From positions 1 through 29,995 of the IMG/VR virus record IMGVR_UViG_3300031576_000015: a stretch of 29,995 nucleotides of DNA, one strand, 5' to 3'. The notes under the pieces were generated by a model. It made no database searches and was not told where the DNA came from. It saw only the letters and a program-made list of their open reading frames with translations. The stretch comes from a virus. Position 1 is the first letter of the stretch. Each line of letters opens with the position of its first letter. A program made the translations under genes and the position numbers. Below are positions 2,958 to 18,800 of this stretch, one piece after another.

Positions 2958-3789
2958 CGCTACCTCCGCTTCCAGATCCGTCAGATGGATAGAGGATGTC
3001 GAACGTGGCTTCAGCAAAGGGACGAGCGCCGTCGTATTTCGCCTTAGCCACTCGTGCCAGCGCGACATGTCCAACCTTTTGGTCCCCTTTCTTGATGAAC
3101 TCCTTGCGACGCACCTCCAACCGCAGGACCGACTCGTGCTTGGACTTATGGCCCATTGGTTCGGTTGTCGCAGGACCATACATGACCCCTATATTATCAC
3201 GAACCTGGTTAGTGAACACAAAGGCCGGTTTGCCCAGCGCCAGCGCAGACTTGATGCGCTTTAGGCCCGCATTCCATAGCCGGACCTCCGGCGAGAATCC
3301 ACTAATGTTTACCTGCTTCTCAAGGTCGTCCTTGCTGACAATGGACGCTGCTGAATCAAACACGACAAGGTCCACATCCTGTTTAATCAGAGAGATCGCA
3401 ATGTCCAGGGCCTCCTCCCCGAACTCCGGGGTACTTATGAGAAGCCGGTCCATGTCCACTCCCAATGTCCGGGCAAAACCTGGCGAGAACGAAACCTCAG
3501 TGTCTATGAAGGCTGCTACCCCACCATCTGCCTGGGTACGAGCGATAGCATTCAGGGCCAAGAAGGTCTTTCCCCCAGACCACGGGCCGAAAAATTCAGT
3601 GATGTGTCCTCTGGGTATTCCTCCCCCTAGGATCTCATCCACGGCCGGCAGGCCGGTGGGGAGGAAGGACACAGTGTAGAGCTCCTCAACGTCACCGGCC
3701 ACTGCCAGCGCACGGGTTCCGTGCTTCTTCTGGATGATGTCCAGCAGTTCCTGCAGTGTCTGCGGGCTGCGCTTCTTCGCCTTCGCCAT
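2893..3789 (-). CDS. RecA/UvsX-like recombinase
   Basis: A 298-residue RecA-superfamily ATPase that would coat single-stranded DNA and catalyse strand exchange for recombination-dependent replication or repair. The Walker A motif is GPWSGGKT (68-75), the strand AAFIDTE (about 92-98) carries the catalytic glutamate, and Walker B is LVVFD (141-145). A segment FVFTNQVRDNIGVMYG corresponds to the RecA region with conserved N, Q and R before DNA-binding loop 2. The canonical GPESSGKT is altered, with W replacing E and G replacing S. It is shorter than bacterial RecA (about 350 residues), lacks the full C-terminal domain and ends in a flexible Gly/Ser tail. Its ATG shares one base with the upstream stop. 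Confidence 0.88.
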   Translation of the reverse strand: MAKAKKRSPQTLQELLDIIQKKHGTRALAVAGDVEELYTVSFLPTGLPAVDEILGGGIPRGHITEFFGPWSGGKTFLALNAIARTQADGGVAAFIDTEVSFSPGFARTLGVDMDRLLISTPEFGEEALDIAISLIKQDVDLVVFDSAASIVSKDDLEKQVNISGFSPEVRLWNAGLKRIKSALALGKPAFVFTNQVRDNIGVMYGPATTEPMGHKSKHESVLRLEVRRKEFIKKGDQKVGHVALARVAKAKYDGARPFAEATFDILYPSDGSGSGGSDASAGGTGGPGVTDSHPSNSL

Positions 3790-5786
3790 TATAGTCTTCT
3801 AACACTCGCATTCCAGAGAGGCTCATAATAGTCTCCCGGCTGATCCCAACGTTGTAGCATCAGGTGTCTTGAAGCGTCTTGAATGATCATACGGGAATTC
3901 GGGTGGCAGGTGTCGGTGAACCACGCCTCGTTCAGCCCGCCGAAGTCACAGTCGATGACTTCCCGTGCAGTCCATTCCGTCACCGTTGCTGGATCGTTGA
4001 AGAGAAACACCGCCCCGACCGGCCCGGTCACGCCACGCCCCAACGGCTGCCCTGGGATCGGCGTCTCCAGCGTCCCGGTAAACCGGCAGCGCAAGTACCG
4101 GGAGGGAATTTCTGGAGGGAAGACATGCTCCTTTACCCAGACCATGTACGGCCCGAACCCGTGAAACGTCGCGTCCTGTACGGTGATCGGCTCGGGCGGC
4201 GCGGAGGTGGCGACTTCAATTACTTGGGACCGGCACTCCCGCGTCTCAAACCCTTCATAGCGGTAGCGGTTCCCGTAGGCTCCGTGCTGGAGCGCACTCT
4301 CACAGCGATATATCCGGCTCCTCAATAAAACGACGTGGGGGTTTCCCGTGTTTTGCCATGTGTCCGTCCCGTTGCGGCAGTTGTGGACGACAAGACGACG
4401 CACTTCCCACACCCCAGCTCCCGAGGCTTCATGACTTTCACCCTCTGGCCACCGCAGGCCCGCAGAATTGCTGAGGCCCTGGATGCCTACGGCACGGCAC
4501 TCCACCGCACGGTTCCGAAACCCGCGCATGGTCATAAACCCGGCCATGCGGCCATCTGCATTCGGCCATGACAGTACGCGCGAGGCCACACACTGGTCCC
4601 ACGCGACATCATGGCTTTGGTTCTCTGGAAATCCCCCGGGGACGGCGGTAGAACCAGAGGCGTCCCACCAAAATGGCTCGCTCCGAAAGACGTTGTGCGC
4701 GACGGCGCCCATATAGGTCACCCCGTGCGAGGCGTGGCTCACGAAGGCGTGATTGCCGAGGTCTCGAAGCACCACTCGCTCAACCCGTGCCCCACGAGCG
4801 GCCTCCCCCAGCATGTGAAAGTGCAGTCCGTATCGCCCTAGTCGCCCAACAAACCGGCTGGCGCGGTTCGGGTCGGGGGCTACGGGTCCCAGGTACTGCC
4901 CTTCCATATCGGCTATGCGAATCTGCCTACTACCCCCAGCGTGGGCCATGCACAGGATATGCGATCGGCCGCCCGGGCGGCCGGTGATACGCACGTTCCT
5001 GGACAACAGCAACACCTCTGCGCCCTCCGCCGTCCCGTCTGCCCACGGCCCACACCGGGGGTGGGCGTAGCGGAGCGGCCGGTCGATCCGCACGGTCCGT
5101 CCCGAGGTGCTGATGACCACCGCGACATCATACGCATCGCGCCACAACTCGGTCTGCGATGCGGGCGCACCCGGGACGGGAAGCGTAAACCTCGACATCC
5201 CGGGCGTGGTAATTGGGAGCGTCGGCGTCACCGCGATCTCCGCGCCAGCGGGCCACGTCACATCACGGTCTAGTAGAATCTCCGTTTCGCCCGCTTGTGC
5301 ATCGCGGGCTAGGAGCGCCCAGGGCACCTCGTACTTTCCGGCGATCTCCACGTCACAGTCCATCAACCACAACCCGGGGTCCGTAGACAGCGGGATGTCG
5401 GTATGCCCCCCGACGAAGGTACTCTCGTTCACCAAGGGCCAGTGCATCTCGAACGGGTCCGGCGTGATGATCTCAAACCGCCCGTGGTGCTGGATGAAGT
5501 TAGTGCCCACCAGGAGCCTCCGTGCGGCTCCAGGAAGAACTTTGAACCCGGTATGGGTGGTCAGAGTCCCAATGGCCCCATCATCCACATCGTACAGTAG
5601 TGGGGGGAGTGTTGCGGGAAGAGTGACGGTATCAGCAATCGTCGGAAGACGAGCTGATCCTAGAAAGGGAGCCCAAAAGCCGGGGTCGCTCCATCGAGGG
5701 CCTGCTTGTGCAATTACTTCGGTAAGGACTCGCGCAGACGTAGAACGCCCACGCGAGTCCTGAACCGTAAGATCAATATTAGCCAT
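3789..5786 (-). CDS. G8/right-handed beta-helix protein, candidate tail spike
   Basis: A 665-residue protein. Residues 1-20 (MANIDLTVQDSRGRSTSARV) look like the closing strand of an Ig-like domain. Residues about 65-190 resemble a G8 domain, including WALLARDAQAGETEILLDRD and VTWPAGAEIAV, close in pattern to the WTxLA...AGdteItL...vdW..GdeI motif of CEMIP/TMEM2/PKHD1L1-type proteins. Residues about 255-640 are repetitive beta strands typical of a parallel beta helix, with GRYGLHFH at 317-324 matching the conserved GRY-x-x-HFH of G8 proteins. Phage proteins of this architecture are usually receptor-binding spikes or polysaccharide depolymerases. Enzymatic activity is not proven. Its position beside RecA rather than other virion genes is unusual. 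Confidence 0.65.
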   Translation of the reverse strand: MANIDLTVQDSRGRSTSARVLTEVIAQAGPRWSDPGFWAPFLGSARLPTIADTVTLPATLPPLLYDVDDGAIGTLTTHTGFKVLPGAARRLLVGTNFIQHHGRFEIITPDPFEMHWPLVNESTFVGGHTDIPLSTDPGLWLMDCDVEIAGKYEVPWALLARDAQAGETEILLDRDVTWPAGAEIAVTPTLPITTPGMSRFTLPVPGAPASQTELWRDAYDVAVVISTSGRTVRIDRPLRYAHPRCGPWADGTAEGAEVLLLSRNVRITGRPGGRSHILCMAHAGGSRQIRIADMEGQYLGPVAPDPNRASRFVGRLGRYGLHFHMLGEAARGARVERVVLRDLGNHAFVSHASHGVTYMGAVAHNVFRSEPFWWDASGSTAVPGGFPENQSHDVAWDQCVASRVLSWPNADGRMAGFMTMRGFRNRAVECRAVGIQGLSNSAGLRWPEGESHEASGAGVWEVRRLVVHNCRNGTDTWQNTGNPHVVLLRSRIYRCESALQHGAYGNRYRYEGFETRECRSQVIEVATSAPPEPITVQDATFHGFGPYMVWVKEHVFPPEIPSRYLRCRFTGTLETPIPGQPLGRGVTGPVGAVFLFNDPATVTEWTAREVIDCDFGGLNEAWFTDTCHPNSRMIIQDASRHLMLQRWDQPGDYYEPLWNASVRRL

Positions 5787-7136: not shown

Positions 7137-7162
7137 GGTGGTAGATGGAGGGAAATGAGCAC

Positions 7163-7585
7163 ATGGACAAGACGAAACCGCGAAAAGTTCATGCCCGAAC
7201 CGAGCCACTCCGTGTGTACTTGGCTGGCAATATGGAACTGCCCTGGCGCGCTCCCATAAAGAAGCGTCTCCAGGAGGCGGGAGCCGTAGTCTGGGAGCCC
7301 GCTGACAACCCCCAACAAAGCGCAGCTCTATACGTTCCCCTTGATCTAAAAATGGCTAAAGAGGCCGATGCCATCCTTGCATATGTCCCCAAAGGCCATA
7401 CGGCCCGGGGTACCCATGCCGAGATGGGGGTCGCTTTTGCCGAAGGCCACCCGATTTGGCTAGTCTGGCAGGACCTCCCCTGGGTCTACAGCTTCTCTGC
7501 CGTTATGGCCTACAAGGTCTACACAGAGCTGGAACCTGCTGTCGAGGATCTGCTGAAATTCGTGAAGCGGCGGGTGTTGGACTAA
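7163..7585 (+). CDS. Nucleoside 2-deoxyribosyltransferase-like protein
   Basis: A 140-residue protein resembling the nucleoside 2-deoxyribosyltransferase family (Rossmann-like), which swaps bases between deoxynucleosides or cleaves deoxynucleotide N-glycosidic bonds. Visible motifs are LRVYLAGNMELPWR near the N-terminus, a central LDLKMAKEADAILAYVPKG, and GTHAEMGVAFAEGHPIWLV, where the glutamate matches the family's catalytic or nucleotide-binding position. Salvage or removal of modified nucleotides is a likely role. The start at 7163 was chosen because GGAGGG lies ten bases upstream and because an earlier ATG at 7145 coincides with the expected transcript start. It is the first gene of the rightward operon. 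Confidence 0.75.
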   Translation: MDKTKPRKVHARTEPLRVYLAGNMELPWRAPIKKRLQEAGAVVWEPADNPQQSAALYVPLDLKMAKEADAILAYVPKGHTARGTHAEMGVAFAEGHPIWLVWQDLPWVYSFSAVMAYKVYTELEPAVEDLLKFVKRRVLD

Positions 7586-9281: not shown

Positions 9282-9497
9282 ATGGTCACACCTGTTCAAT
9301 TTAACTTGTATCACGAGGCTGCCGCCGAAGCACGGCGGCGTACTGAGGCAGGTAACCCTTATCATGTCACTACTTTGCACTCGATAGATTCGTATTGGTA
9401 CGAACTGAAAGAGGGGCCAGATCCATATGCTTGGTCCTATCCAGATAAAGGTCGTCCGTTGGCCAAACAACGTCCGAAGGGAGGAAGTAATGTCTGA
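9282..9497 (+). CDS. Hypothetical protein, 71 aa
   Basis: A 71-residue protein of unknown family starting MVTPVQFNLYHEAAAEARRR. It has an amphipathic helix in the first third and an aromatic-rich segment (SIDSYWYELKEGPDPYAW), with a basic C-terminus. The ATG comes five bases after the previous stop, with no clear ribosome binding site, so coupled translation is likely. It ends in an eight-base overlap with the next gene. Composition and packing support coding, but nothing identifies its function. Confidence 0.5.
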   Translation: MVTPVQFNLYHEAAAEARRRTEAGNPYHVTTLHSIDSYWYELKEGPDPYAWSYPDKGRPLAKQRPKGGSNV

Positions 9498-9651: not shown

Positions 9652-12600
9652 TGGCTAGTTGCCCAATTCACCCTGGTTGCCATGCGTATGTGCCGTGGAA
9701 CGGGCCGGAGACAGCCCGTCTTGCCGTAATAGGCGAGGGCCCCGGGGCGCAGGAATTCCAGACCGGCCGACCGTTTGTCGGCCCTGCTGGGCATGTACTC
9801 GATACCGAGCTGGCCCGGGTAGGAATTCCTCGCTCCGAGGTCTTCGCCTACAATGCTGTGCCATGTTTTGGCAACACTATCCCGCGTACCCCTACGGAGA
9901 AAGATCTGAAGGTTTGGCGGCAACACCTCCTGGATAAGCTAATCGAGGTGAAGCCAGAGGTGATCCTCGCCGTTGGCGGGTGGGCGACGGGCGCCATTAT
10001 TGGCAAGCGTCGTATCACAACTGAGCAAGGGGCCGAGCGACGGGTACGACTGGCTCCCGACTACGAGCCTTGGGTCATGCCGTGCTTTCATCCGGCGGCA
10101 ACCCTCCACGACCCAAACAAGAAGCCCGACTTCATCAAGACAATTACCCGTACTGAACAGCTGCTCAATGGTAAGATCGTAGAGTGGTACGCGGGATACA
10201 AGATAGTTGATGATACCACCATTGCCGAGGCCGTGTCCGATCTGTCTGACACGGTTCTGTCCGTAGACATAGAGAGTGCTAAGAGCGAGGTTGTGGTAGT
10301 GGGTCTGGGTAATCCAGGCAGGCCTATTTGGGTCTTCCCAGTTGGGCACCCAGAAGTTGATCCTGCGGTCCAGGCACGGCTTCGTGCCGCTGTTCGTGGC
10401 ATTTTCGATGCTACCATGCGGGATGGAATCCGGGTGATGCACAATGGCAAATACGACACGCAGGCCCTAAAGGCAGAGGGCCTGATGTCTATGGCCGACC
10501 GGGGAGTTGATTGGGATGGGGTGTTGGTGGGCCATCTTCTGGATGAGACACGGGCGGACAAGGGGCGGTTGAAGCTGAAAGTCTTGGGGCAGGAGCTGTT
10601 CGGGATCCAACGGTATTGGACTGTCCCAATCTCGACCATGCACACCGTACAGCAGGGCAAGAAGACCGTTACGAAGCTCGTAGAGGTGCCATTGGATGCT
10701 ATGCTCCGCACTGGTCGGGCACGGGAAGTGCCTCTGGAGACCCTGGCGGAATACAATGCCCGAGATGTGGCCCTGACCCTCATGGTCAAGGATGCCTTTG
10801 ATAAGGACTTTCTGGCCGACCAAAAGTTGGTACGTCTGTACCAGAAGCTGGTTCTGCCGGCGTACCATGCCATGGAGCCTATCGAGAGGGCAGGCCTGCC
10901 TACGGATATGCCGACTTTGCAGAAGTTGGAAGTTGACTACGCTACTGATCTTGCCGGTATTGATGCCGAATTGAACCAGATGTTCTCTGGCGAGGTCAGC
11001 AATTGGAACTCCGACGCCCAGCTTCGCAAGCTGCTATTTGATAAGCTGGGGCTACCCGTTGTCCGGCGCACCACCATCGAAAACGAACCTTCGGTAGATG
11101 TGTCCTCTCTCATGCTACTGAAGGGGAATCACCCCGTCATCGACCTGTTGCTCCGTCGGTCAGAGGCGGACAAGCGGGTGACCACGGTCCAGACCTTGAA
11201 AGACCATATCGCGCCCGATGGTCGCATCCACCCTACCTTCGTAGTGGCCGGCCCTTCGACCGGGCGAACTTCGTCCCGTGACCCGAACGTACAGAATATA
11301 CCTCGGGGGAAGGGCATCCGGGACATCATCCGGGCGCGGCCAGGCTACAAGCTGGTGGAGCTGGACTTCAGTCTCATCGAGCTCCGGTGGGGAGCCCATG
11401 TTTACAATGAGCCGAAGCTGAAGTCCCTGCTCCAACAGGGCAAGGACTTGCACCGCTACACAGCATCGTTGGCCTATGGCAAGCCGATGGATGCCATTTC
11501 TTCTTCGGAGCGTACCCACGGAAAGACGGCCAACTTTCTTCTACTGTACGGTGGTGGCCCGGATAAGCTGTCCACCCATTTGCGGGATAACGGCGTTACC
11601 GAGCTGGAGGCACAGCAGGCTCTGGTGGCTATGGGTCAGATGGCTAATTCTGAAGACCCTATCTATTTCCTGGCCCTGGCGCTGTGGAAGGCGTTCCACC
11701 GGGCCTACCCGGCGCTGAAACCGGCACATGAGATGATCACAAGAGAGATCCGGCGCAACAAGACAGTGCGTACCCTGTTTGGACGGGTCCGTCGTCTACC
11801 TGGGATTGATTCAGCCAATCGCAAGGAAGCGATCCATGCTGCTCTGTCAGGTATCAACACCCTTGTACAGGGACCGGCCAGTGATACGATGCTATTGGCC
11901 TTACCCGGCCTAGTGGAGATGGCACCAAAGTATGGTGCCCTCATTGTGGACGTTGTACATGATGCCGTCCTAGCCGAAGTACCAGAGGACCAGGTCATAC
12001 CCTTCGCCAAGCACGCGAAGCAGATCCTGGAAACCCCCGACTTCGCCCAGTTCGATGTCACCTTTGACATCCCAATTCTGGTCGATGCCAAGGTTGGTCA
12101 TTCGTGGGGATCTCTGAAGGACTTAAGGGAGGAAAGTGAAGTGCCGCAAACATACGAAGTACAAGGCCCTACGGCCACCCCGGACCCGAAGGTTTTGCCA
12201 GAGGCGCCTGTGGAAGTAGAGCAAGCTCTCGAACCCTTCGCTGCGGCTCTGGCTTACCAGGCGCGTGGCTGGTCTGTCATCCAGCTCACGGCCCCAGGGC
12301 AGGGATTCCAGGCCGGAGGAAAGGCCCCGGCCATCAACTGGGAACCCTACCAGCATCGGCATGCCACCATACAGGAGATCCAAGCATGGTTCGGTAAGAG
12401 GGGTGATGGTGGTAATGCCGTACCCCATTCAAAGAATGGCAAGCACAACATTGGCATCGTTACGGGGTCCGTCTCGAAGCTAGTGGTCATTGACATCGAC
12501 CCGAAGAAGGGCGGACTGGACTGGTTGAAGGAGAAGAACCTCACGTCGCCTGCCACAGTACGAACTGGCGGCGACGGTCTGCATCTTTATTTCCACTATG

Positions 12601-13907
12601 AGGGGCCGCCCCTGACTAACCGAGCGGGAATGGCGCCGGGTGTGGACATAAGGGCCGAGGGCGGGCAAGTGGCCGCGCCGCCGAGCCTGCACCAGTCGGG
12701 CAAGCGGTACGTCTGGCTGACCCCGGATGGGCTATTGCCGGCAGAACTGCCGGAGCTGCCGGTGTGGTTGGCCGAGGAAATCAAGACTCGGGCCAACGTG
12801 CAGGCGGTCCCGATATCGGGCGAGGGCCGTAACATCCCGCCGGCGCGTATCGACGAGGTGGTGGATCAACTACTGCCCTACTACGTCGAAGGTCGGCGCC
12901 ACGACATGCAACTGGCCCTGGCCGGGTTTCTGGCCAAGCGCAACTACCAGATGGCCGACGTGGAGGATTTGGTGATTCGGCTGGCCAATGCGGCTGAGGA
13001 CACCGGTGAACTCAACGACCGTCTGATGGTTGTGCGGGATACCTATCGGAAGGTGACGGTTGGCGAGACCGTTGCTGGGAGTGACAAGCTGCGGGACTAC
13101 CTGCCAGCCGATGCACTGGACCGGCTCCTCGAGCTGTTTGGTTCTCTTAGGAAGGTGGGCGTTATCGAGGTTATGCACGGCCCAGATTTCGTTGCGAAGA
13201 AGCGGGAAGAGGTGAGCTGGCTCATTGATAAGCTGCTTCCAACGGCCGGTATTTGGATGATGTCAGGCCACCCTGGGGCCGGCAAGACGACCCTGGCTCT
13301 GCAGTTTGCCTTCAGTCTGGCCGCCGGTATGGACCTATGGGGATTGTACGCGGTCCCGAAGGCTGTGAAGGTGTTGTATCTCCAGGCCGACAACCCGCCC
13401 CACATGTTCGAGGACCTGGTTCGTCGGTTGTCACAGCGGATGCCAGGGGCCCTGGCCAACATGTACTTCTCCAATGTCACCAAGTCCATCAAAGTCAACA
13501 CTGAGCAGGGCTATGAAACTATGCGCCAGCTGGTTGAGCTGTATACCCCGGACATGATCCTTCTTGACACCATCCGGGATTTCCATAGTGCTAACGAAAA
13601 CGACCCCACGGCCGTGGCGGAAACATTGGATGCCTTGAAGTCGATCCGGGGTAACCGGTCGATCTCCGTCGGGTTCATCCATCACCACTCTAAGGGATCG
13701 GCTACTGAACGCATGCAGATAGAGAAGCACATGGGATCGATGCGGTTCGTCACCCCGGTGGACCTATCCATGTCCCTGACCTTCGATGAGAAGGAGATGG
13801 GCTATGTCATCCTACGGTTCACCAAGATTCGATGGGCGGCTGGGCAGCAGCCCGTAACTCTGCAACGGAGGGACAACTGGTACGAACACGTTGGCGGGGG
13901 TGTGTAA
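9651..13907 (+). CDS. UDG-exonuclease-DNA polymerase A-PrimPol-helicase fusion
   Basis: A 1418-residue replication protein. Residues 1-170 resemble family 4/5 uracil-DNA glycosylase: GEGPG (28-32), GRPFVGPAG (39-47), NAVPC (68-72), HPAA (147-150). Residues 200-390 form a DnaQ-type 3'-5' exonuclease: D205-x-E207, HNGKYD (D269), Y368-x3-D372. Residues 400-825 form family A polymerase: motif A DFSLIELR (572-579), motif B R621-x3-K625-x3-F629-x3-YG, motif C HD (770-771). Residues 860-1030 form an archaeo-eukaryotic-type prim-pol: DIDP (948-951), TGGDGLH (972-978), GVDIR (997-1001). A primase-C-type helical linker follows. Residues 1175-1418 form a RepA/RecA-like ATPase: GHPGAGKTT (1206-1214), ILLD Walker B (D1306). 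No 5'-3' exonuclease is present. Individual domain pairs occur in phages; the full five-part set on one chain is the notable point. Confidence 0.9.
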   Translation: MASCPIHPGCHAYVPWNGPETARLAVIGEGPGAQEFQTGRPFVGPAGHVLDTELARVGIPRSEVFAYNAVPCFGNTIPRTPTEKDLKVWRQHLLDKLIEVKPEVILAVGGWATGAIIGKRRITTEQGAERRVRLAPDYEPWVMPCFHPAATLHDPNKKPDFIKTITRTEQLLNGKIVEWYAGYKIVDDTTIAEAVSDLSDTVLSVDIESAKSEVVVVGLGNPGRPIWVFPVGHPEVDPAVQARLRAAVRGIFDATMRDGIRVMHNGKYDTQALKAEGLMSMADRGVDWDGVLVGHLLDETRADKGRLKLKVLGQELFGIQRYWTVPISTMHTVQQGKKTVTKLVEVPLDAMLRTGRAREVPLETLAEYNARDVALTLMVKDAFDKDFLADQKLVRLYQKLVLPAYHAMEPIERAGLPTDMPTLQKLEVDYATDLAGIDAELNQMFSGEVSNWNSDAQLRKLLFDKLGLPVVRRTTIENEPSVDVSSLMLLKGNHPVIDLLLRRSEADKRVTTVQTLKDHIAPDGRIHPTFVVAGPSTGRTSSRDPNVQNIPRGKGIRDIIRARPGYKLVELDFSLIELRWGAHVYNEPKLKSLLQQGKDLHRYTASLAYGKPMDAISSSERTHGKTANFLLLYGGGPDKLSTHLRDNGVTELEAQQALVAMGQMANSEDPIYFLALALWKAFHRAYPALKPAHEMITREIRRNKTVRTLFGRVRRLPGIDSANRKEAIHAALSGINTLVQGPASDTMLLALPGLVEMAPKYGALIVDVVHDAVLAEVPEDQVIPFAKHAKQILETPDFAQFDVTFDIPILVDAKVGHSWGSLKDLREESEVPQTYEVQGPTATPDPKVLPEAPVEVEQALEPFAAALAYQARGWSVIQLTAPGQGFQAGGKAPAINWEPYQHRHATIQEIQAWFGKRGDGGNAVPHSKNGKHNIGIVTGSVSKLVVIDIDPKKGGLDWLKEKNLTSPATVRTGGDGLHLYFHYEGPPLTNRAGMAPGVDIRAEGGQVAAPPSLHQSGKRYVWLTPDGLLPAELPELPVWLAEEIKTRANVQAVPISGEGRNIPPARIDEVVDQLLPYYVEGRRHDMQLALAGFLAKRNYQMADVEDLVIRLANAAEDTGELNDRLMVVRDTYRKVTVGETVAGSDKLRDYLPADALDRLLELFGSLRKVGVIEVMHGPDFVAKKREEVSWLIDKLLPTAGIWMMSGHPGAGKTTLALQFAFSLAAGMDLWGLYAVPKAVKVLYLQADNPPHMFEDLVRRLSQRMPGALANMYFSNVTKSIKVNTEQGYETMRQLVELYTPDMILLDTIRDFHSANENDPTAVAETLDALKSIRGNRSISVGFIHHHSKGSATERMQIEKHMGSMRFVTPVDLSMSLTFDEKEMGYVILRFTKIRWAAGQQPVTLQRRDNWYEHVGGGV
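12128..12143 (+). promoter_or_regulatory. Internal ribosome binding site and GTG at the polymerase/primase junction
   Basis: Within the fusion gene, GGAGG (12128-12132, inside AAGGGAGG) lies eight bases before an in-frame GTG at 12141, which encodes V831. This is exactly where the polymerase domain ends (its last conserved block is VGHSWGSLKDL) and the linker to the prim-pol begins. It could start a separate 588-residue primase-helicase, or it could be a relic of a formerly separate gene. Confidence 0.6.
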
Positions 13908-15806: not shown

Positions 15807-18800
15807 TAGTATAGTCTCGACTTTCTCCTCTTCTTTACTGGGAGCTCAAGACCCGGCTCAACCCGTTCCAACTCTGGGAAGACGCCCGGTCGTAGCTCGG
15901 TTGGTACCTGTCTAGCTGCTCTCTCAAGTAGGGTTCGTTCCCATTGCTCCTGCTCGCGAGCAAAGTCCTTGGCATCAAGTCCAAGCTCCGCTCCCTGGGC
16001 GGCGATGTCCATAGCCTTTTCGTAATCGCCCTTGTTCCAGGCTTGCAGGTAGTCCAACCGAAGTTTATTGGCCTTGCGTGTGTACCAGCTGATAACCTGG
16101 CCCCGTGGTCCGTAGCGTTCATATGTCTCCCCGGCCAATGACTCTTCCGGCAATCGGCCACCGATAGCCTTCAGGATGGTTTTGTAGCCCCTGAAGGGAT
16201 CCTCAGACAGGTCTATGGTCATAGCTCCTTCCTTAGTGGGGGAGCGAAGCTGGCCTGGCTCGACATAGCCACTTTCCTCTATGATGGGTAGGGGTATGGG
16301 TAGCTGTTCGCCACCAATCTGTAGCAGCTGTGGGGTCTTACCGGTGTGGCTCTTGACGGAGTAGTAAATGGACCACAGCTGCACTGGGGCCAGGGCCTTC
16401 CAGAGGGCATCGGCGTGGATTTCGTCTCGGTGGTAGAAGAAGTCTGATATGGCCACCCGCAGATCGTTGAATAGGCCGGCCCACACGCTGAAAGCACGGG
16501 CTGCCTTGCCGACTGCTACATCAGGCTGCAAAGCCACCATGGCAGCATTTTCGAAATCCACGGTTAGACCGATGCGCTGGGACAAATCTAGGCCGAGTAC
16601 CGAGCCGATACCACGTAATGGCACATCTCCAAAGCGGCCCAGCTCTGGCTTGAGGCGCTTGAGCTCGTCTAGGAACGAGAAACCCAGGCCGGTTTGTGGA
16701 TCCTTCTTCCAGTGCTCGAAGACGAACTTGTCCATCATTTCGACGGCCGGGATGCCGAGTAGGCCGGTGAAGGCGGTGCTGACAATCAGAAAGCGGGATA
16801 GCTCTTTCCAGTATGGATCGTACCTCTGTACAGCTGATCGTGGCTGTACCAGGTCTGTGATGAAGTTGACCTCGTGGAGGAAATACGGCTTAAACTGTAA
16901 CAAGAACCGGACGAATGGGTTGCGAAACATGGCGGGCAGGGCCTCTATACCATAACGGAACTGGGTGCGGTCAACAGCCCACTTCTTGGCGAACTCTATG
17001 GACTTTTCGTGGGACCACCCGCGATCCAGGCCCTTAGCATAGCCACCGAAGGCGGCTGTGGCTCGGTTGATCTTCTCTGCAGTGTTGAACATCGATAGAA
17101 TGAACATACTGACTTTGCGGCCCTTATAGTACCCGTCAATGGCCCACTTGGGTATATATAGATCGACATCCATGGCCTTGGCCAAAGTATCCAGACGCAC
17201 ACCCTTGTAGGTAGCATGTGGATTCATCATAGATTCCGTGGTTAGCTTTATGCCCGTGAAGGTATGGTTGCCTAGGACTGGGTAGGTGTTGATGGCAGTC
17301 TGAGTCAGATTGACCAGGGCGGACATGGGGTTGCCCAGCTTCCATAGACTCATCAAGCGGGAAGCCTGTTGCAATACCTTGCGCGTGTACCAGCCATGGG
17401 ACCCGCCATAGAAGTAGACCAGATTGTCGATGGACTGCTCAGTAGCAGATGGCCGGCTTGTATCGATAGCACCGGCCCACTCTTCCATATACTTATAGGC
17501 CTGGTAGAGACGGCGGTTGTGCTGTGGACCGGGTTTTAGCTCGGGCAGGGCCCGAACCTGGTCCAAAATGAGATTGGCATCCTTGCGGAAGGAGTTCCCT
17601 TCGATACCAACTGTGAGGGCACGAATGTAGGTATTCAGAGCGTCTACCGGATTCTTGACGTAGCTGCTCAGGAACAGCTTGCGGGGCTGCAATGGACCGA
17701 TGAATCTTTTCTTGGGTGCAATGCCCAGTTCCCCGGACTCTAGTAGAGCCTTCCATACTGTAGCTGAGGATAGGCGGAGCCCAGGGCCGGCAGTGAAACC
17801 CCAGGCCGCGTAGTGTGACTGGGCAGCGGCTGTGACTTCCTTGGATAATGCCTTGGATAGGTGACCCAGGGCCTTGGCCGATAGCCAGTGTTGTATCTCG
17901 CCCGGCAGGTTGGTACGTGGGAAGATGGTGATACCATCATCTGCTAGGATCTTTTGGACGGCCGCCGGTCCTTGGGTTCTGTAGATCTCCCGTAGGGACA
18001 CGGGGCCCCAGTTGGCATTATTCATGATATGCTGCAGGGCCTCCTGGAAGGTGTCGAAGAACTCCATAGAGGTTCGGTCCTGTGCGGTGGCTAGTCTGTG
18101 GTTATAAGCTGCCCACTCCCCACGGAAGTTGTGTGGGAAATAGTCCGGACGATAGTTGGGATTGACCTTGTTGAATGGCTGATGGAAGGTCTGATTGCTG
18201 ACCCAATTGGTCTTGCCCGGAACCGGGATCATACCTTCCAGCTCTACCATGCCATTGGATAGATAACGCTTGACTAGATACTTTTCGGTACGTCCGAAGA
18301 AGTCACGGGAAATGACTGAGTTCTGGGTGGCCTTGGTGCCGTTATATTCCGCTGCCCAATCCAATAGCCGACGTATATCGTTAGCTACTATCTGTAGGGT
18401 CGGCGGCAGCGTAGGAATGGCTAGACGTCCCTCGGAGGCAGCCACGATCTGTTGCTGCTGGGCATCCGGTAGATGGCCGATGAGTCGGTTCACCTGCTCG
18501 CGGAAATCGATGGAGTGCCGCATCTTCTCGTTGGTGAAGACAACTCCACGGTCCAACAAAGCAGGTAATAAGTCCTTAGCGAATTGGATGATATTCCCTG
18601 TTGTCAGGGTAATCGGCTTGGGAAGCTGGCCGGTTGTGGTTTCGGCCGGACCAACACGGGACCAATGTTCGGGTAGACGAGTCCACCAGGCTGTAACATC
18701 GCTGATCGCATCAGCCAAACTGATCCGTGGGCGTCCGATAGACTTCTCCACCAATTCGGCGGCAGGATCATCGGGGCCGCTGAAGCGTATGAAACCGCCC

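Follow-up and report, generated by a model that had tools for sequence, protein, structure and literature searches.

The window (a 29,995-nucleotide stretch of a microbial virus, IMG/VR record IMGVR_UViG_3300031576_000015) contains a 1418-codon open reading frame encoding a fused replicase, whose domains follow the order uracil-DNA glycosylase (UDG), 3'-5' exonuclease/family A polymerase, Prim-Pol and RepA-like helicase (Table 1). This four-domain replicase is the unusual feature of the locus. A sequence-only reading had described the protein as a polymerase followed by a primase-helicase, a description that the domain matches bear out.

Table 1. Features of the replicase locus, in window coordinates
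Feature	Position	Strand	Basis or remark
Small ORF upstream of replicase, 53 aa	9490..9651	+	Its stop overlaps the replicase ATG (TAATG)
Fused replicase gene, 1418 aa	9651..13907	+	ORF list, Pfam, PHROG, NCBIfam; fusion intact also in L001
Uracil-DNA glycosylase domain, family 4 type, residues 17-164	9699..10142	+	Pfam PF03167, 4e-21
3'-5' exonuclease region, about residues 171-400	10161..10850	+	PRK14975/PRK05755 models; DIE, HNGKYD, YNARD motifs
Family A polymerase domain, residues 422-823	10914..12119	+	PF00476, 2.6e-69; Taq polymerase chains
Inter-domain linker, about residues 824-861 (~38 residues), predicted unstructured	12120..12233	+	pLDDT; comparison with L001
SD-like AAGGGAGGAA, holding GGAGG (12128-12132)	12125..12134	+	Sequence; anti-SD duplex energy
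In-frame GTG at codon 831, where a 588-aa primase-helicase may begin	12141..12143	+	Sequence; homologous GTG in L001
Prim-Pol (AEP) domain, residues 866-1039	12246..12767	+	PF09250, 9e-30
Control: second in-frame GGAGG-N5-GTG, codon 1108	12962..12974	+	Also conserved in L001 (codon 1139)
RepA-like hexameric helicase domain (predicted), residues 1180-1350	13188..13700	+	PF13481 (AAA_25), 4e-28; PDB fold matches

The UDG domain is also matched by 1ui0 and by TIGR00758 (4e-26, below that model's cut-off), and the NCBIfam exonuclease/polymerase models PRK14975 and PRK05755 start at residues 187 and 200, respectively. Residues 19-830, comprising the UDG, exonuclease and polymerase parts, match the phage DNA polymerases of phrog_17 (E 4.5e-123), whose free-standing members, as far as examined, lack the primase-helicase half, and the best PDB fold matches of the helicase domain are to RSF1010 RepA. 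Catalytic motifs include DFS (572-574), VHD (769-771), DID (948-950) and GHPGAGKT; motif statements (DIE, HNGKYD, YNARD, DID, Walker A) were made by reading. Domain models and motif reading together place a helicase, an AEP primase and a polymerase with exonuclease in one polypeptide. At 80% coverage of this protein, no record was found among 50,697 phage and 72,556 plasmid records, and no description of the UDG-PolA-Prim-Pol-RepA architecture was found in the open-access literature. Elsewhere in the window, positions 7145-7585 (+) show a weak match to nucleoside 2-deoxyribosyltransferase (phrog_355, 3e-6).

The only other fused gene found in the viral_contigs, genome_contigs, phage and plasmid records searched is that of IMGVR_UViG_3300009012_000054 (L001), whose replicase is 62% identical and whose contig ends inside the helicase. 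Because synonymous sites are near saturation between the two genes (identical codons 0.346 vs 0.277 expected), their comparison is informative.

Other arrangements were also encountered. In Manatee Spring phage ctEqG8 (MW202795; L005:4197-7455), a helicase-like gene comes first and overlaps a polymerase gene, the reverse of the order in the window. In a bacterial chromosome contig from Qipengyuania aquimaris (L114), a relative of the polymerase half matches residues 260-819 at 27% identity. Separately, L117:10306-16976 (G000 about 58.3-65.0 kb), in a 94-kb virus record, holds 43 tRNA genes grouped on a single strand, whose anticodons cover nearly every amino acid, and L118 encodes a Ku-like end-binding protein (16658-17542, +; phrog_4873, 5.7e-39) and an ATP-dependent DNA ligase (3623-4465, +; phrog_114, 1.7e-68), a possible end-joining pair of its own.

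The linker and codon 831

Taq polymerase chains align up to replicase residue 823, adjoining their C-terminus, and the Prim-Pol fold begins at 862-866 according to Pfam and predicted structure, with the first primase helix starting at residue 862 in a model of codons 812-1418 (mcf8f6c81f88d; moderate overall confidence, mean pLDDT 72.6). In that model pLDDT is below 50 over codons 812-859, the first 12 residues (812-823) being the cut end of the polymerase. The linker is conserved neither in sequence nor in length between the two fused genes: that of L001 is ~24 residues longer, and the alignment block covering it shows 16% identity. The sequence-only reading had placed an internal start exactly at the polymerase/primase junction; codon 831 does lie between the two domains, but near the beginning of the linker rather than at an exact junction. 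In a product starting there, about 31 loose residues would precede the Prim-Pol and helicase domains, both complete as judged by Pfam and the model.

The GGAGG, the 8-base spacer and the in-frame GTG of that proposal are all present as described, and the product counted from this codon has the stated length. The duplex with the anti-Shine-Dalgarno (anti-SD) sequence reaches -11.3 kcal/mol, the best among the 102 in-frame ATG/GTG/TTG codons of the gene, stronger than the replicase's own start (-9.2) and the next-best internal site (-9.3, codon 1108); these energies use the common bacterial anti-SD. In energy, spacing and start codon, the site has the strength of an initiation site, and the 10-mer AAGGGAGGAA also precedes the start of the upstream gene at 9490. 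An RNA hairpin that would mask or uncover the site was rejected, since folding is no stronger than in shuffled sequence (z 0.92), as was use of the SD by a gene in a different reading frame, since no plus-strand ORF of at least 80 aa starts near 12140.

In L001, a GTG at codon 841 occupies the position of codon 831, is preceded by GAGGAG and is the strongest internal SD-start of its gene (-9.5, rank 1 of 95). The homologous codon is thus the best internal SD-start in both fused genes despite the diverged linker around it, although two fused sequences are too few to judge conservation at this position.

Explanations for the site

We give about an even chance to coincidence, in which AAGGGAGGAA and GTG 831 would be ordinary linker codons (Leu-Arg-Glu-Glu-Ser-Glu-Val) whose resemblance to a strong ribosome-binding site is accidental. 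The gene would then make one long four-domain replicase, with about 38 unstructured and loosely conserved linker residues between its polymerase and primase-helicase modules; no separate primase-helicase product would be needed to explain the site, which, we infer, would have no selected role. The window count of GGAGG-N(4-10)-RTG is at expectation (26 observed vs 23 expected), and internal sites combining a 5-nt SD with a start number 26 in 13,872 codons of the phage, giving 0.07 expected per 39-codon linker. If the protein sequence is kept and codons are drawn at random according to the usage of each gene, the codon itself acquires a site at least as strong as -9 kcal/mol with P = 0.13 (831) and 0.17 (L001 counterpart), and the linker acquires, at any position, a start preceded by a 5-nt SD match with P = 0.34 (window) and 0.32 (L001). 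The codon 1108 control, located within a conserved VEDLV motif and not at a fusion point, is comparable in strength and conservation (P 0.08 and, for L001 codon 1139, 0.09 in the same test), and free-standing relatives lack a start at the position of 831. Against coincidence stand the rank of codon 831 above every other candidate in the gene, including the real start, the recurrence of the homologous codon as best internal site in L001, and the probabilities of a site of the full observed strength anywhere in the linker (P = 0.018 for the window, 0.009 for L001), on which we do not rely, as they hang on the exact energy threshold. Because the P values at a fair threshold are moderate and the codon 1108 control behaves alike, these sequence data do not set codon 831 apart from a protein-driven coincidence.

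Slightly below coincidence we rank a functional internal start, a reading we hold only tentatively, in which ribosomes would bind AAGGGAGGAA and begin at GTG 831, producing a free 588-residue primase-helicase besides the full fusion. The signs in the sequence are suggestive: the strongest SD of the gene lies here, as does that among internal sites of L001; the position at the beginning of an unstructured linker would leave both downstream domains whole; the RNA is not unusually stable; and the same 10-mer serves the upstream gene. There are also precedents. In Salmonella, alternative starts carry stronger SDs than annotated starts (PMC11005335), and from the relaxase-primase fusion MobA/RepB of RSF1010 the RepB' primase is also made from an internal in-frame start (PMC6854812). 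The window gene resembles mobA/repB in being a fusion with a C-terminal primase part, which RSF1010 produces alone from the alternative start, and the RSF1010 primase works beside the hexameric helicase RepA, the fold nearest to the window helicase. RSF1010 differs in that the fusion partner is a relaxase, not a polymerase, and RepA is encoded by its own gene; its internal start has been established, that of the window gene only predicted. Weighing against an internal start, the site is not rare given the amino acids, the control at codon 1108 looks much the same, and only two fused genes are known in this analysis. Initiation at codon 1108 would give a 311-residue helicase-only product.

The sequence-only reading had alternatively taken the site for a scar of recent fusion by stop-codon loss, with the SD and GTG left over from the start of a once separate primase-helicase gene, and had proposed a comparison with relatives in which the two halves are separate; that comparison mostly refutes the idea, which we regard as very unlikely. 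Where phage genes are tightly packed, the SD of one typically lies within the end of the gene before it, and the free-standing polymerases examined, which stop at positions equal to 823-894 without a primase-helicase half, end in about half of cases at the equivalents of 823-830, just before GTG 831; the others, however, have tails running past 831. Removal of near duplicates from a collection of about 80 free-standing primase-helicase loci left 25, and no polymerase match was found in the examined flanks of such loci. With start codons inferred from sequence, all 25 have one within 20 codons upstream of the Ala865 equivalent (ATG in 23), the nearest ATG lying a median of 6 codons before it, and a stop closes the frame before the position equal to 831 in 19 of 24. 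These genes begin 5-17 codons before Ala865, near codon 857, whereas codon 831 is 34 codons before it; their starts do not align with codon 831, and the split point lies elsewhere. L001 still has Met codons near ~857 (DMSIEMYSAAL), and the extension from its homologous GTG would be longer still. Nor is the fusion recent, because the 62%-identical L001 gene has it too, and near-saturation of synonymous sites would have eroded a useless relic.

Least probable of all is a pausing role without initiation, in which translating ribosomes would be delayed at the SD-like run, after the polymerase and before the primase, giving the polymerase time to fold first: the site does lie just past the last folded polymerase residue, but no clear domain end precedes the similar site at codon 1108, and SD-induced ribosome pausing is itself disputed.

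Known replicases and the probable helicase ring

Gene 4 of phage T7 yields a 63-kDa primase-helicase and a 56-kDa helicase, the latter from an internal start. The likeness lies in one phage replication gene with two in-frame products differing in domain content (predicted for the window gene), but the T7 primase is of the DnaG/TOPRIM type and has no polymerase fused to it. Among described replicases the closest is GP55 of lactococcal phage 1706, a helicase-AEP-PolB four-in-one replicase with 3'-5' exonuclease (PMC12205980). Like the window replicase, GP55 unites helicase, archaeo-eukaryotic primase, polymerase and 3'-5' exonuclease in one polypeptide; it differs in having a family B polymerase, the order helicase-primase-polymerase and no UDG domain, whereas the window replicase has a family A polymerase (PF00476), a UDG and the order UDG-PolA-Prim-Pol-RepA.

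The window helicase is probably hexameric, because it is RepA-like, and the fusion of a polymerase to a ring helicase poses the question of how a six-membered ring accommodates as many as six polymerases. An internal start, if real, would be a simple answer: were codon 831 used, rings with fewer than six polymerases could form from the free subunits, and a pool of free primase-helicase could dilute the polymerase in the ring. We think it unlikely that nested products, from starts at 831 (primase-helicase) and perhaps 1108 (helicase), give a ring with a chosen number of tethered polymerases; if they did, replisome stoichiometry would be set by the strength of ribosome binding inside a single gene. 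Absent from the phage and plasmid collections searched, the UDG-PolA-Prim-Pol-RepA protein represents a compact one-chain replisome and, whatever the start, a candidate self-priming, proofreading, strand-displacing polymerase.
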